55,373 bases of DNA, from NCBI GenBank assembly GCA_002868905.1, contig PKUA01000005.1, forward strand, positions 30,636 through 86,008, written 5' to 3'. The stretch is from Desulfuromonas sp. (GTDB lineage: Bacteria; Desulfobacterota; Desulfuromonadia; Desulfuromonadales; Geothermobacteraceae). Position numbers and translations under genes: made by a program. The notes beneath the pieces were generated by a model. That model ran no database searches and was not told the DNA's origin. It was given only the letters and a program-made list of their open reading frames with translations. This document shows positions 17,680 to 41,498 of this stretch, piece by piece; positions within the stretch are counted from its first letter, which is position 1, and every line of letters begins with the position of its first letter.

Positions 17680-17807
17680 CAGTATCCCTTCTCCCCAGGG
17701 GAGAAGGTGGCCGAAGGCCGGATGAGGGGAACTGACACGCGCCCCCTCACCCCAGCCCTCTCCCACTCAGGGGAGAGGGTGAAATGCAGGACATGAAAGC
17801 CTTGGGC
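17680..17807. repeat. Dispersed GGGGAGAGGG-type repeat, family B
   Basis: Two facing hairpins of the CTCCCC/GGGGAG type (17690-17704 and 17757-17779), then a tail (17773-17807) nearly identical to 22731-22765 (ggggagagggtgaaatgcag, then catgaaagcc). It lies between convergent genes. The adjacent 17817-17836 holds a further small hairpin (GGGGCGATCGTCGCCCC). Confidence 0.7.
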
Positions 17808-20718: not shown

Positions 20719-22619
20719 CCCGCCCCATCCTGCTGCTCTGTTGCTGGCTGCTGTTAACGACGCCGGCCATCGCTGTCGAAACCATTCTCGATTTCCACTC
20801 CGATATTCGGGTTGAAACCAGCGGCAGCATGGTCGTCACCGAGACTGTCCGGGTCACCGCCGAGGGGAAGTCGATCAAGCGGGGCATCTATCGCGATTTT
20901 CCGACCGACTACACCGATCGCTACGGCAACCGCTACCGGGTCGGTTTCGATCTGCTCTCGGTGCAACGCGACGGCAAGCGAGAGGAATTCCACACCGAGC
21001 GCCGCTCCAACGGCCTGCGAATTTACATTGGCAGCAAGAACCGACGGCTGAAACCGGGGACATACAGTTACCAACTACGGTACCGGACCGATCGCCAACT
21101 CGGATTTTTCGAGCAGCATGACGAACTCTACTGGAACGTCACCGGCAACGACTGGGCCTTCCCGATTGATCAAGCTGGTGCGAGCGTCTCCCTTCCGGCA
21201 GGCATTTCGGCCAGAGATATCGGCGTCGAAGCATATACGGGGCCGACCGGCTCCAAGGGGCAGAACTACCGGGCCGATGTCGATGACGCAGGGGTGGCGC
21301 ATTTCACGACGACCAGAAAATTGCGACCGAAAGAAGGGTTGACCATCGTCGTCACCTGGCCGAAGGGCTTCGTCCATGAACCGACCCGCGGAGAGCGGGC
21401 CGACCGCCTGCTGCGGGACAATCGTCACCTGGTCATCGCCCTGGGAGGCCTGCTACTGATCATCGGCTATTACCTGGCGGTCTGGTGGCGGGTCGGGCGC
21501 GACCCGGAAGCGGGGGTGGTCTTTCCGCACTATATCCCCCCGAGCGGTTTTTCACCGGCATCAATGCGCTATATCCGCCGCATGGATTATGACCACAAGG
21601 CGTTCGCCTCCGCCCTGGTCAACCTGGCGGTCAAGGGACTGGTCGAAATCGAGGAAGAAGGCGCCAGTTACCGGCTGACCCGCACCAGCCTGCCGGCAAA
21701 AGAGCTCGCACCCGGGGAAAAAACGTTACTGTCCAAGTTGTTCGCCGGCGGCATGACCCTGCAGTTGAAAAACCGGAATCACCGCCGGATCAAAGCGGCC
21801 CTCACCTCCCACAAGAATGCCCTGAGCAACAATTTCGAAAAACTCTATTTCCTCAGCAACCGTCGCTGGTTTATTCCCGGCGCGCTGTTGAGCCTGGTTG
21901 CGATTGTCGGCAGCGTCATCAGCCTGCCGGTGCTGGACGACATCATCGGCCTCGCCTTCATCACCGTCTGGCTCACCTTCTGGAGCTTCGGCGTATTCGC
22001 CCTGCTGCGTCGGGTGGTGCAGCTCTGGCGCGGTGCCGACTCCGCCGCCGGGGTCATGGGAGCGGTCATCATCTCACTCTTCGCCCTCCCCTTTCTCGGC
22101 GGCGAGATTTTCGGCATCTACTTTTTCATCAGCGCCGCCTCCTGGCCGCTGTTCATCATCTTCGCCCTGACCATCGGGGCTAACCTGCTGTTCGCCCACC
22201 TGCTCAAGTCCCCGACCCGGGCCGGTCGCCAACTGCTCGACAAGATCGAAGGGTTTCGCCTCTACCTCGACGTCGCCGAAGCTGAAGATATGCGGCTGCG
22301 CAACAAACCGGACCAGACTCCGGAGCTGTTCGAGAAGTACCTGCCGTACGCGCTCGCCCTCGACCTGGAACAGGCCTGGGCGGAGCAGTTTGCCGACATG
22401 TTCGCCGATCTGGAGCAACGGGGGGAGAGCTATCGACCCGTCTGGTACACGGGGCACCGCTGGAGCAGCGGCAACCTCGGAGCGTTCGGCAGCAGCCTCG
22501 GCAGCACGCTCAGCGGCGCCATCAGCAGCTCGTCGAGCGCTCCGGGGTCATCCTCCGGAAGCGGGGGTGGGGGTTCCTCAGGTGGCGGTGGCGGTGGCGG
22601 AGGTGGCGGGGGGTGGTAG
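20715..22619 (+). CDS. DUF2207 membrane protein with glycine-rich tail
   Basis: 634 aa. The signal peptide (cleaved near TPAIA) precedes an extracytoplasmic beta-rich domain (about 22-235; [12 protein letters not shown] is a DUF2207 hallmark). A helix follows at about 238-257, then a cytoplasmic domain that begins near [16 protein letters not shown], and a cluster of helices at about 375-490. The C-terminus ends in a run of glycines closed by Trp, typical for DUF2207 and TPM-type proteins. It overlaps lemA by 4 nt. Probably works with LemA at the membrane; biochemical role unknown. Confidence 0.88.
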
Positions 22620-22730
22620 GAGCGGGTCACTCCTCAGCGAGGATTCACCAGGTGCTGTTAGCGCCCAGAGTCCTGAAGGACCGAAAGATCTCGGACCAGC
22701 AGGCTTACGACAACATCCCTTCTCCTCGGG

Positions 22731-22765
22731 GGAGAGGGTGAAATGCAGTCCATGAAAGCCTTGAG
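22731..22765. repeat. Dispersed repeat, family B (short copy)
   Basis: ggagagggtgaaatgcag followed by tccatgaaagccttgag matches the tail of the repeat near 17773-17807 except for a few bases. Like that copy it lies between convergent genes. Confidence 0.7.
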
Positions 22766-22786
22766 CTGAAGGTCCGTAGTTTTGAG

Positions 22787-23110
22787 CTAGGGCGCCGAGA
22801 CAATAAAATCGTACGCGCCGCCCCCCTGAACCAACAGATAGGCGCCGGGTGTCGCGCCGGGGTTGATGACCCGATGGCGCTGCCCCGAAAGAACAGTACA
22901 GCGCTCTCCGGCGGTGAGGGGAACGCGACGGTCCGGGCCGGCCAACTCGACCACCAATTCACCTTCCAGACCGACCATCTCATCGGTGACCAGGCTGTGC
23001 CGGTGCCAGGCGGTCCCTTCGCCGGCAGCCAGGGTCATCACCCGGACCCGGGCCGAATCGGTTTCCAGCAAAGTCTCGGCATGGAACCGTGACTGCGTTG
23101 CGCCGCTCAC
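22787..23110 (-). CDS. Small cupin-domain protein
   Basis: 107 aa, a single cupin barrel: WHRHSLVTDEMVGLEGEL (motif 1, metal ligands His36 and His38, Glu further on) and SGQRHRVINPG (motif 2). The GTG start overlaps the TGA of murB (GTGA), so it is probably translated by coupling. Function not predictable beyond binding a small molecule or metal; the fusion to murB in one operon may be incidental. Confidence 0.85.
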   Translation of the reverse strand: MSGATQSRFHAETLLETDSARVRVMTLAAGEGTAWHRHSLVTDEMVGLEGELVVELAGPDRRVPLTAGERCTVLSGQRHRVINPGATPGAYLLVQGGGAYDFIVSAP

Positions 23111-24093
23111 GCCGGAACCCGTTCACCGTCCGCCGCATCGGCCGGCATGATCACTCCCTGCGGACTGACATAACGGACCTCGCAGCGCAGGTCGAAGCCG
23201 ATCTGTTCCTTGACGGCATGACGGACCAGGCCGATCAGCGCCAAAACGTCACATGCCGTCGCCCCCCCCAGGTTGACGATAAAATTGGCATGTTGCGGCG
23301 AGACCTCGGCCTGGCCGATCCGCACCCCCTTGAGCCCCGCCTGTTCGATAATCCTCCCTGGAGGACCGACCGTGGCGTGCATTTTGGAGGTGCTGAGAAA
23401 CACCGAACCGCAGTTCGGCTGTTTGCGGGGGAACTTGGCGCGCCGTTCGCGCAGATCGGCGAGCATGACACGACGAATCTCCGCGGCAGAGGACTCCCCC
23501 CCTTCCAGTTCGACCCGCACCACCACGGCCCCGCTCTGCTGCAAGGCACTCTGCCGGTAGGCAAACCCGCACTCCGCAGCGGAAAGGCAACGCTCTGTGC
23601 CATCCGGCTCGACCACCCAGACCCGGCGGACATTTTCTCCGATACCGCGTCGCTGGCTGCCGCCGTTCATCAAAACCAGGCCGCCGAGAGTTCCGGGAAT
23701 GCCGATGGTGTGCTCAAAACCGGAAATCCCGGCCCGCATGGTGCTGCGAGCGAGTTGCGGAACCCAGACCCCGCCCTCGGCGACGATCTTTGTCCCCTCG
23801 ATCCGCAGAGCGGCCATCCTCCCGGCGACTTTCAGGACGATACCGCGCAGTCCCGCATCGTCAAACAGCAGGTTGGTCCCCTGCCCGATCACCAACAGAG
23901 GGATATCCGCGGCCCTGGCCGCCTTCACCAGGCGGGCCACCTGGCCAACGTTTTCCGGCTCCACCAGCAGGTCGACAGGACCACCGATCGACCAGCTGCA
24001 CTGCTCGGACAGGGGCGCATCGAAACGGCATATGCCGACATCGAGAGCGGCAATCTGCCGTAATTTATTTTCCAGTGGTGATGGATCAACCAT
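23107..24093 (-). CDS. murB: UDP-N-acetylenolpyruvoylglucosamine reductase
   Basis: 328 aa. FAD-binding stretches are SWSIGGPVDLLVEP, GQGTNLLFDD and GISGFEHTIGIPGTLGG. Catalytic-region residues are NCGSVFLS (Ser proton donor) and the closing IIEQAGLKG and HANFIVN; the layout is type II. It reduces UDP-GlcNAc-enolpyruvate to UDP-MurNAc. The start at 24093 is chosen because family homology begins just after it. The only purine-rich site (TGGAG) is 14 nt away, so initiation is weak. The start codon sits at the left edge of a ~120-bp duplicated segment. It stands outside any mur/fts cluster, which is unusual. Confidence 0.92.
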   Translation of the reverse strand: MVDPSPLENKLRQIAALDVGICRFDAPLSEQCSWSIGGPVDLLVEPENVGQVARLVKAARAADIPLLVIGQGTNLLFDDAGLRGIVLKVAGRMAALRIEGTKIVAEGGVWVPQLARSTMRAGISGFEHTIGIPGTLGGLVLMNGGSQRRGIGENVRRVWVVEPDGTERCLSAAECGFAYRQSALQQSGAVVVRVELEGGESSAAEIRRVMLADLRERRAKFPRKQPNCGSVFLSTSKMHATVGPPGRIIEQAGLKGVRIGQAEVSPQHANFIVNLGGATACDVLALIGLVRHAVKEQIGFDLRCEVRYVSPQGVIMPADAADGERVPA

Positions 24094-24210
24094 GCGAACC
24101 GACAAACTCCATAATGAATCAAAAACAATCTCCCTCCCCCCTCGGCGGGAGAGGGCCGGGATGAGGGGGACCCAAAAGACAGGCATTGCCCCTCATCCGC
24201 CATTACGGGA
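24091..24210. repeat. Direct duplication, copy 1 (covers the murB start)
   Basis: About 120 bp resembling 24239-24357: catgcgaacc, then tgaatcaaaa, then a CCCTCTCCC hairpin, then aaaagacagg and cccctcatccgcc. Copy 1 begins at the murB start codon (minus strand). Confidence 0.75.
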
Positions 24211-24508
24211 ACCATAGGACAGTCGCGGCTTTGCATTCCATGCGAACCGTCAAGTCCCTTTATGAATCAAAACAATCTCCCTCTCCCCTCAGTGGGAGAG
24301 GGCCGGGGTGAGGGGACAAAAGACAGGTATTACCCCTCATCCGCCCTTACAGGCACCTTCTCCCCCGGGAGAAGGGCGATGTGAAAAACACTCAACGTAA
24401 ATTAACACATAGCAGCCCGAAGCGCCACGGCACTGGCACAGACGGACTTTATTGATAAGATTGCACCAGAGTTTGTTCCGGGAAATCGACAACCGGCTGG
24501 AGGCTGTC
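24094..24508. other. Intergenic gap filled by repeats
   Basis: 415 bp between the divergent genes murB and the ferritin-like gene. The left 260 bp is the two repeat copies. A third small hairpin (cttctcccccgggagaag) lies at 24357-24374. No gene is supported. Confidence 0.6.
24239..24357. repeat. Direct duplication, copy 2
   Basis: Second copy of the segment at 24091-24210, about 80 % identical by eye, including its own CATGCGAACC (a relic of the murB start triplet on the minus strand). Confidence 0.75.
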
Positions 24509-24967
24509 ATGTCAAAGCAGAGCTTGCGCACCGCCATCCTGGAAGCGATCAGGGCCGAGAAACTGGCGATGGATTTTTACCTGGCAGCCGCCGCCCACGC
24601 TTGCAACCAAAGGCCGAAACTGACCTTCAAGCTGCTGGCGCGCGAAGAACGCGAACATGCCCGCGCCTTTTACGACTCCTATCCGCATGACGACCTGGAC
24701 CCGTTCGAAGACCTGATGGGGTCGCCTCCGGATACGTCGGCCGAATGGTGGCAGGAACTGAACGAGGTGATGAGCGGTCGGTTCGACGAAGCAGAGGCGC
24801 TGAAACTCTCCCTGGCCCACGAGAAAATGCTGGAAAGCGACCTACGGGAAACGGCCAAGACCATTGAAGATCCCGAGATCAGGCTGGTCTACCTGAAGAA
24901 CGCCGAACTCACCCATCAGCACCAGTTGCTGATTGAAAACGATTACCAGGCGATTGCCGGGGAGTAA
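24509..24967 (+). CDS. Ferritin-like (rubrerythrin-type) protein
   Basis: 152 aa. The start at ATG 24509 follows GGAGG (5-nt spacing); the TTG 57 nt upstream has none. It is a four-helix bundle with EAIRAEKLAMDFY (Glu17), LAREEREHARAFY (ExxH pair) and LSLAHEKMLESDL in the second half, the spacing expected of a di-iron site. There is no rubredoxin domain at the C-terminus, unlike classical rubrerythrin. Probable role: iron binding or peroxide protection in an anaerobe. Monocistronic. Confidence 0.8.
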   Translation: MSKQSLRTAILEAIRAEKLAMDFYLAAAAHACNQRPKLTFKLLAREEREHARAFYDSYPHDDLDPFEDLMGSPPDTSAEWWQELNEVMSGRFDEAEALKLSLAHEKMLESDLRETAKTIEDPEIRLVYLKNAELTHQHQLLIENDYQAIAGE

Positions 24968-24995
24968 CGGGAAGCGCAACGGAGGTTGGAGGGGG

Positions 24996-25781
24996 TCAGA
25001 AATCGTCGAGGTCGTCGAGACCGAGATCGTCGGCGGTGATTCCGTCGTCTTTTTCCGGTTTTTTCTTCGGCTTGGGAACATCCTTGTCAAGTTCATCGAG
25101 GCCGAGCAGGTCAGCGGTCAATCCACCCTTTTCCTTTTTGGGCGGTTCGGGCTCTTCGACCGGCAGCACGTCGACTTCCGGGAGGTCCTCCTCCGTCACC
25201 GGCTCCGGCTCAACCGCTTTTTCAGGGCCATCCTCGGCATCCCCCTCCATGGTCAACTCACCGTCACGCATCTTCTCATCGAAAATCCGCAAGGCATCCA
25301 TCAACACCGCCTGGATGTCGACACTCACTTCATGTTCGATATTGTCGGGGTAGTATTGGAACCCGTCCTTTGCCACCTCGTCAGAGGCCTCGAGGCGGAA
25401 GGTCCCCTGGTTCCAGGTCAGAATCTCGACGATGACCATCTCGATCAGGTATTTAAGACCCTTGTAGGCATCCTCTTCCTTGACCAGCCCGAGATCGATC
25501 ATGGTGACAATCAGCGGCTTTCGACTCTGCCCTCCCGCGCTTTGTGCCTGCAACGCCTTTTTCAGAGAAGCTGCATTGATCACCTTACGGGAGATCAGAA
25601 TTTCGCCGATGCGCATCGCGGGGTCGATGTGCCCGCCACTGACGATATACCCGCCCTTGAACACCAGCTGACACTCACCGCGGCGGCCATTCAGGTGCAG
25701 AATCCCCGAGGATCTGGTGTTGTGCAACAGTTGGATAACATCGACCAACGGGACATGTTTCAAGTCACCGGAAAATGACAA
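24996..25781 (-). CDS. DUF4388 (PATAN) domain protein
   Basis: 261 aa. The N-terminus SFSGDLKHVPLVDVIQLLHN and the following ILHLNGRRGECQLVFKGGYIVSG are the PATAN/DUF4388 fold, common in Geobacter-like genomes. The middle has a second all-helical domain (KKALQAQ to TWNQGTFRLEASDE). The tail is a low-complexity acidic/proline-rich region ending in repeats of ADxLGLDxLDD. The start is uncertain: TTG 25781 puts the domain at residue 2 and has GCGAGG 9 nt upstream, but the frame stays open to 25964. Probably a regulatory adaptor; its exact role is unknown. Confidence 0.8.
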   Translation of the reverse strand: MSFSGDLKHVPLVDVIQLLHNTRSSGILHLNGRRGECQLVFKGGYIVSGGHIDPAMRIGEILISRKVINAASLKKALQAQSAGGQSRKPLIVTMIDLGLVKEEDAYKGLKYLIEMVIVEILTWNQGTFRLEASDEVAKDGFQYYPDNIEHEVSVDIQAVLMDALRIFDEKMRDGELTMEGDAEDGPEKAVEPEPVTEEDLPEVDVLPVEEPEPPKKEKGGLTADLLGLDELDKDVPKPKKKPEKDDGITADDLGLDDLDDF

Positions 25782-26045
25782 CTGTTTCAACCTCGCGCTT
25801 TGATCAATAAAGACAGATAATGTCGGAAAAACCAGGTCGCGTGACACGGAAACCACGTGCTGCCGTGGTCTGCTGAAACGGTCAAACCGCTCCCGGCCCG
25901 CAACGACCGTGCTATTAAACTTGAAATGGCCAAAAAATTCAAGCGTTGCGAAGATTTCATCCACTCAGCCGTTTTTGACCGGCATCAAAGCAATATCCGG
26001 TCATTTCGTGCAGACTGGGTTCAACTTAAATCAAGGGGAACACAG

Positions 26046-26213
26046 ATGATAACAACCACCGAAGCGATTGCAACGACCCTGATCTGGGCTCTGACCGCCT
26101 GCGGACTCTTCTTCGGCATCCGCGGCGCCTTGAAACGGCATCGCAGAAACCGCAATACGCCTCCCGAAAACCACCCACCCAAACCCGCCGACCAAGATCA
26201 ACATTCTACCTAA
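26046..26213 (+). CDS. Small single-pass membrane protein, 55 aa
   Basis: ATG 26046 follows AAGGGGA. One hydrophobic segment (about residues 8-28, IATTLIWALTACGLFFGIRGA) is followed by a strongly basic stretch KRHRRNRN and a proline-rich tail, giving an N-out/C-in topology by the positive-inside rule. No family recognised. Too small for firm support by coding statistics. Confidence 0.55.
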   Translation: MITTTEAIATTLIWALTACGLFFGIRGALKRHRRNRNTPPENHPPKPADQDQHST

Positions 26214-26280
26214 ACTTGCAAAAAACAAGGATTTTGCTAGGGTATATACTGACCATTACCCCTAGCGAAAGGAGTTTAGC

Positions 26281-26709
26281 ATGAGTTTGTTCGGCCGGAT
26301 GTTTGGCGGAAGAGAAAATTACCCCGACCTCGATCCCAACACCTCTGCCGCCGAAAAAATCGCCAGTATTGAAGCTCACCTCGAGAAAATAGCGAAGGAC
26401 TACAAGGAGCCGCTTGAAGTGGTTCCGGGACGGGACGCGACCTATGTATTCATCGGCAAGCCGCCGAAAAAATTCGGTGTCGCCTGGATTGAAGACGGTG
26501 AGGTCAAGAACTTCCAGACCCTGGCCAAAGAGCAAGGTGTCCAGGCTGGGGTGCTCCAGAGCATGGGTGAGAAATTACGCTCAGCCTACGAGCGCAACAT
26601 TGAAGCGGAACGGTTCACCGCCCACCTCGACAACTGCGATATCACCGTGACCCCTTGCACCGACCTGATGGAAGAGGTCGACGAGATCATCGGCGACACG
26701 CTTCACTGA
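26281..26709 (+). CDS. Conserved hypothetical protein, 142 aa
   Basis: Soluble, mixed alpha/beta by composition: a basic N-terminus (MSLFGRMFGGRENYPDLDP), a helix with AAEKIASIEAHLEKIA, then strands such as ATYVFIGKPPKKFGVAWIEDG. The pair of cysteines in DNCDITVTPC may be functional. ATG after GAAAGGAG. Followed by a good terminator. Not a recognised family; the look is of a conserved deltaproteobacterial protein. Confidence 0.78.
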   Translation: MSLFGRMFGGRENYPDLDPNTSAAEKIASIEAHLEKIAKDYKEPLEVVPGRDATYVFIGKPPKKFGVAWIEDGEVKNFQTLAKEQGVQAGVLQSMGEKLRSAYERNIEAERFTAHLDNCDITVTPCTDLMEEVDEIIGDTLH

Positions 26710-41072: not shown

Positions 41073-41498
41073 TGCAAAACACCTCGTCTCAAAATTGTTT
41101 CCAACACCGGTTCAAGCCATGTGCTTAAGTTCAAACCATTCAGGCTCAATTATCCCGCCTCCCCCAGAAGGGACAGGTGTCCGCAAGTGTGGATGAGGGG
41201 TCTGTTCGTCTTTTGATCTTCCCCTCACCCGTCGCTTTGCGCCACCCTCTCTCCAAGGGAGAGGGGAAACCGGCCTTTGATTTTCCGTACTTTATAGCCC
41301 TTGGAAAATCTATTCACTTTCAGTGAACAGTGTTCGGTTGAAGCGAACCGTTTATATAACACGACATTCAAGAGGAACAAAACAGTTGTGCATCCCCCCT
41401 TGCGCAGAATTGAATGATCGTTTAATGTTTCGGCCCGTTGGAGATTTCGCTCATCTGTGTCGATCTGCAGCAAATCCATGCATGAGAAGAGAACAGCC
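41073..41498. other. Long intergenic gap with a repeat and two palindromes
   Basis: 426 bp. It holds a CTCACCC...GGGGAG-type repeat at about 41193-41275, a palindrome TTCACTttcAGTGAA (41313-41327) and another GTTCGgttgaagCGAAC (41332-41348), then TATATAA (41353-41359). These resemble a promoter/operator region for the YkgJ gene. No gene recognised. Confidence 0.5.

Follow-up and report, generated by a model that had tools for sequence, protein, structure and literature searches.

Triplex motifs of Escherichia coli (TM/TMECO; Holder et al. 2015, PMC4666352) are defined, in the available text of that paper, by three stems, where stems of at least 7 bases tolerate no more than a single mismatched triplet, and loops of 1-6 bases. 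The same text reports greater variability at E. coli TM loci than at control sites, leaving the mechanism open. Tandem copies of inverted pairs of palindromic REP sequences are described as BIMEs in the available parts of PMC2817692 and PMC8266576. Here we describe a TM-like element that stands twice upstream of murB, together with the murB leader, in a 55,373-nucleotide stretch of a Desulfuromonas sp. contig (the window). We consider it likely (probability about 0.8) that a local tandem duplication of leader and element took place, in which the murB-side leader would be ancestral, slippage or a repair error the cause, and no dedicated function involved.

Results

We used Tandem Repeats Finder and a separate repeat search to define the repeated region. 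The former reported a span of 24090-24357 with diverged direct copies at 24090-24213 and 24238-24357 (period 147, 1.8 copies, 84% matches, score 397). The latter found three collinear blocks: 24090-24124/24238-24272 (83%), 24122-24168/24269-24315 (91%) and 24173-24213/24317-24357 (88%). Local alignment of the two copies gave a score of 148 with three small indels, and their divergence was about 16%. A preliminary description of two copies of about 120 bp with the same order of blocks was thus borne out, its coordinates being correct to within one or two bases. It had also placed the murB start triplet (CAT on the plus strand, ATG on the minus strand) at the edge of copy 1 and, preserved, in copy 2; we found it at 24091-24093 and again at 24239-24241. 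On the minus strand, the frame opened by the copy-2 triplet runs for 12 codons before a stop, as counted by eye. An assembly artefact was considered as the source of the repeat and is unlikely because the copies differ by 16%.

Each copy was composed of a left segment of 41-42 bp, seen only at this locus, and a dispersed palindromic element making up the right two thirds (Table 1). The element lies between murB and a rubrerythrin-like gene, and continues as far as about 24376 beside copy 2, but not beside copy 1.

Table 1. Features of the region upstream of murB, in window coordinates
Feature	Position	Strand	Basis
murB, UDP-N-acetylmuramate dehydrogenase, ATG 24093-24091	23107..24093	-	NF010480, TIGR00179; homologue starts
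In-frame extension of 31 codons upstream of murB, judged not real	24094..24186	-	359-aa frame; homologue starts
Unique segment of copy 1, the murB leader up to and including the start codon	24090..24131	-	repeat blocks, alignment; locus-only
Decayed triplex motif of copy 1 (2 mismatched triplets)	24132..24167	+	motif script
Spacer of copy 1 with the truncated second half of the element	24168..24213	+	repeat blocks, alignment
Filler between copies, 24 bp	24214..24237		no match elsewhere beyond chance
Copy 2 of leader, with fossil start triplet 24241-24239	24238..24278	-	repeat blocks, alignment, genome query
Perfect triplex motif of copy 2 (no mismatched triplet; loops of 6 and 3)	24279..24314	+	rules in available text of PMC4666352
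Inverted second half of element with its own terminal hairpin	24333..24376	-	alignment, folding
Divergent rubrerythrin-like gene	24509..24967	+	PF02915 25.8 bits, cut-off 22.8

The left segments of the two copies aligned with a score of 47, whereas none of 2000 single-base shuffles scored above 25. When a 290-bp query was searched against the organism's own 3.3-Mb genome, 26 other places were found with E below 1e-3, all of which begin at or to the right of 24272; the 41-bp leader segment was absent from every one of them. A 65-bp query made of filler and leader returned only the two copies and one 21-bp match at chance level, and the filler itself had no further match beyond chance in the window or in 28 loci of the same genome. 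If a longer mobile element containing the 41-bp segment had inserted twice, this would fit the dispersal of the element in this genome and the tandem pairs present in a relative, G019 (below), but the uniqueness of the leader to this locus led us to reject independent insertions, and we regard this reading as largely refuted and very improbable. One local duplication is simpler, because the leader is duplicated yet found only here. By eye, AACCAT occurs at 24210-24215, where copy 1 ends, and again at 24088-24093, spanning its start; this pair could be a junction microhomology.

We next applied our own script of the published TM rules. The copy-2 core, CCCTCTCCC-CTCAGT-GGGAGAGGG-CCG-GGGTGAGGG, was a perfect class II motif with 9-base stems, while copy 1 failed the rules with its two mismatched triplets. 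No TM hit was obtained in 20 one-strand single-base shuffles of the window. The core matches the G/C-rich intrastrand TM class and is a predicted triplex former. Folded as single-stranded DNA, copy 2 (98 nt) gave -25.7 kcal/mol with a z score of -3.48, and copy 1 (82 nt) -17.1 kcal/mol with a z score of -0.87. The TM core is followed by an inverted second half that has a hairpin of its own, which makes the unit a BIME-like inverted pair with a spacer. We take TM to be identical with E. coli BoxC, and the second half of the element presumably resembles the rhizobial RIME1 repeats. An Rfam search over 22000-26500 with E up to 1 returned a single row, for a microRNA family, at 22.9 against a gathering score of 100. 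Literature searches for RIME1 returned none, and those for the string of the second half nothing related.

The exact core occurred 11 times in the organism's own 3.3-Mb genome (reversed control, 0), which agrees with the several copies per genome expected of TM, and was also present elsewhere in the order, in 9 of the 38 other genomes. Allowing up to 3 mismatches made the pattern non-discriminating (21 hits against 14 in the reversed control), the motif being nearly mirror-symmetric. A covariance search, in which 150 of 759 first-look candidates were scored, gave 44 rows, with some places on both strands, and this figure is not a copy count. Within the window, further copies or fragments of the element were seen at 17686-17779, 22717-22740 and 41175-41230, with another perfect triplex motif at 17744-17779, on the minus strand. 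At several loci of the same genome (L085, L086, L092, L104 and others) the second loop holds a small GC-rich insert, e.g. GGCGCGAAGCGTC, and these variants exceed the 1-6 bases that the published rules allow for a loop. With regard to the intergenic position that goes with TM, the element of the window stands between two genes; at 24 of the 25 other loci of the same genome, the longest frame free of stops that crosses the element measured 36-195 codons.

The murB product scored 275.1 bits with NF010480 (cut-off 259) and 198.1 bits with TIGR00179 (cut-off 144.5). It is the sole full-length MurB match in the genome; one other match is weak and partial. The genome's division and cell-wall cluster (L122, C78:67500-71000) lacks murB: by eye, ddl-, ftsQ- and ftsA-like frames come after murC, and no murB separates murC from ddl. 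The MurB proteins of the four genomes of the same family are only 39-42% identical to that of the standalone gene, which may therefore be a replacement.

In order to place the murB start, 37 of the 39 closer loci were compared, L056 and L057 being left out; L006/L046 and L007/L043 are apparently the same sequences entered twice. Counting back from residue 21, 36 of the 37 have an ATG at a distance of 18-26 codons (L055 is the exception), and that of the window is at 20. A listed Shine-Dalgarno core within 20 bases of the ATG was absent from 21 of 36 loci and present in 15. The two closest homologues, L002 and L003, have AGGA 7 bases from the ATG, and the window has GGAG at 13 bases. A weak ribosome-binding site is therefore common in the group, although that of the window may be weaker than in its closest homologues, relative to which it could be derived. 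The preliminary description had blamed the repeat for the weak site; with 21 of 36 homologue ATGs lacking a core as well, this is not clearly so.

It had further proposed that the repeat created or copied the murB leader. Copying stands, since the leader lies inside the duplicated unit. Creation would mean that both start codon and ribosome-binding site of murB came with an inserted copy of the outer unit. It would account for repeat homology stopping exactly at the start codon, for homologue leaders unlike that of the window and for the better-placed AGGA of the two closest homologues. However, a start created by the repeat is improbable, because an ATG stands within a few codons of the same place at 36 of the 37 loci, and because the element has no match in 79 other murB loci (below). 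The flanks also argue against creation: the copy at murB is truncated and decayed and the complete element lies outside, an arrangement to be expected where the old right flank borders copy 2. We consider a created leader unlikely.

Another claim, that the repeat explains the long in-frame extension of murB, held: from ATG 24186 the frame runs for 31 codons through copy 1, and the extension appears from the sequence to be read-through of that copy. GAGG stands 4 bases before this ATG and is itself repeat sequence. One could suppose that the doubled hairpins are functional, as terminators or attenuators of murB, or that 24186 is a real alternative start with a repeat-derived ribosome-binding site, for which GAGG would speak. 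Terminator-like sites do face murB in each of the copies (counting every kind, the region has 5 sites against 1.2 expected), but these calls come from a consensus scan only, and the available text of PMC4666352 cites earlier work in which the motif was without promoter or terminator activity. Among the upstream frames printed for homologues, none resembled the extension by eye. A functional role, or a start at 24186, is thus unlikely. No sigma-70-like promoter was found in 23900-24700.

We looked for the same arrangement elsewhere. The element gave no hit at E 0.01 in 79 other murB loci (L002-L080), a set which includes many distant homologues and some loci cut near the gene (L056 begins inside it) and does not amount to 79 full independent leaders. 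A 123-bp leader query against 38 other genomes gave many chance-level rows; the best of those listed (E 0.005, G016) fell within the stretch of the query that codes for MurB, and not at the murB match of that genome. The preliminary description had named, as its refutation, relatives that have this leader without the repeat; the genomes searched, all of other genera, showed neither the leader nor the element at murB. Genomes G019 and G023 have both the motif and the same kind of murB, not side by side. In G019, of the same order, TM pairs with spacer form tandem arrays with periods of 126/129 (2.9-3.3 copies) and 141 (2.3 copies). On contig 21 of this genome (L117, 2930-4190) arrays of TM pairs with these periods alternate, and a frame between them appears to resemble a DUF559-type protein. 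In the window's own genome, L090 (C8) contains two direct copies of about 124 bp (156-279 and 417-540, 84%) of a different palindromic repeat, standing on both sides of a triplex motif.

Discussion

On our preferred reading, the ancestor would have had murB, its leader and one complete BIME-like element, followed by the divergent rubrerythrin-like gene. An error of replication or repair at structure-prone DNA would then have duplicated in tandem a unit that begins with the murB start codon and breaks off within the second half of the element. The murB-side copy would have retained the working leader and start and the outer leader turned into a fossil, the copies having since diverged by about 16%. 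Tandem duplication turns A-S-B into A-S-S-B; as the murB coding sequence flanks copy 1 and the remainder of the element flanks copy 2, the murB-side leader is likelier to be the original. The outer flanks thus suggest that the start triplet of copy 2 is the fossil. The state of the copies also favours duplication, copy 2 being perfect and running to its terminal hairpin, and copy 1 decayed and truncated.

Several observations count against this reading. The 24-bp junction filler is not predicted by a simple tandem duplication. The unduplicated state was not seen, the four genomes of the same family carrying a MurB of 39-42% identity, and homologue leaders are unlike that of the window, so that ancestry is unreadable from them. 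Among the 25 other element loci of the genome, a local direct repeat was found only at L090, and that is of another kind. Finally, the changes reported for E. coli TM are deletions and mutations, and the word 'duplication' is absent from the available text of PMC4666352.

We therefore read the locus, as the best interpretation, as a neutral, decaying duplication, and propose no dedicated function for it at murB. The murB start looks ordinary, and the whole looks mostly like routine repeat biology: a known structure-prone repeat adjoins a cell-wall gene, with one full-length copy and the leader of the gene duplicated. One practical warning is that gene callers may run murB on into repeat DNA. 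The locus also gives modest support to the link between TM and local genome instability published in PMC4666352 (available text), adding duplication to deletions and mutations. A bolder idea, which we think rather improbable, is that TM pairs act as local duplication seeds that copy the leaders of neighbouring genes, the murB locus being the fossil of one such event. If true, duplication seeding by TM pairs would give bacteria spare translation starts and 5' untranslated regions.

Comparison with known systems begins with RAYT-linked REP/BIME, with which the element shares an inverted palindrome pair with a spacer. BIME-2-type amplification of this pair by a RAYT or other Y1 transposase would be in keeping with the known tandem copies of inverted REP pairs (PMC2817692, PMC8266576, available parts), with the TM arrays in G019 and with three Y1_Tnp matches above cut-off in the same genome. 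However, none of the three Y1_Tnp loci has an element match (BLAST at E 1e-3; the left side of L108 is cut off by the end of its contig) or an exact sub-motif, and only seven scattered 9-11-mers with one mismatch were found there. By eye, the feet of the window palindromes also carry no GTAG or CGTC tag. We judge such amplification to have little likelihood. Some other element copies have AAGCGTCGGG in the second loop. Literature searches found none for murB with repetitive extragenic elements, and nothing related for REP in Geobacter.

Compared with BIME-2 arrays (PMC2817692, PMC8266576, available parts), the locus is alike in its two inverted palindromic halves with a spacer, tandemly repeated, but has two copies only, with a gene leader inside the repeated stretch. 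It differs from TM/TMECO in that its copy is part of a tandem duplication that includes a gene leader, in that the inverted partner is a variant whose longer second loop can hold a small extra hairpin, and in that the triplex is predicted from sequence. The likeness to TM/TMECO is nevertheless close: type B (Table 1 of Holder et al. 2015, PMC4666352, available text) has the same stems, order and second loop, CCCTCTCCC-loop-GGGAGAGGG-CCG-GGGTGAGGG, and both families are dispersed, occur partly as inverted pairs and include decayed copies.
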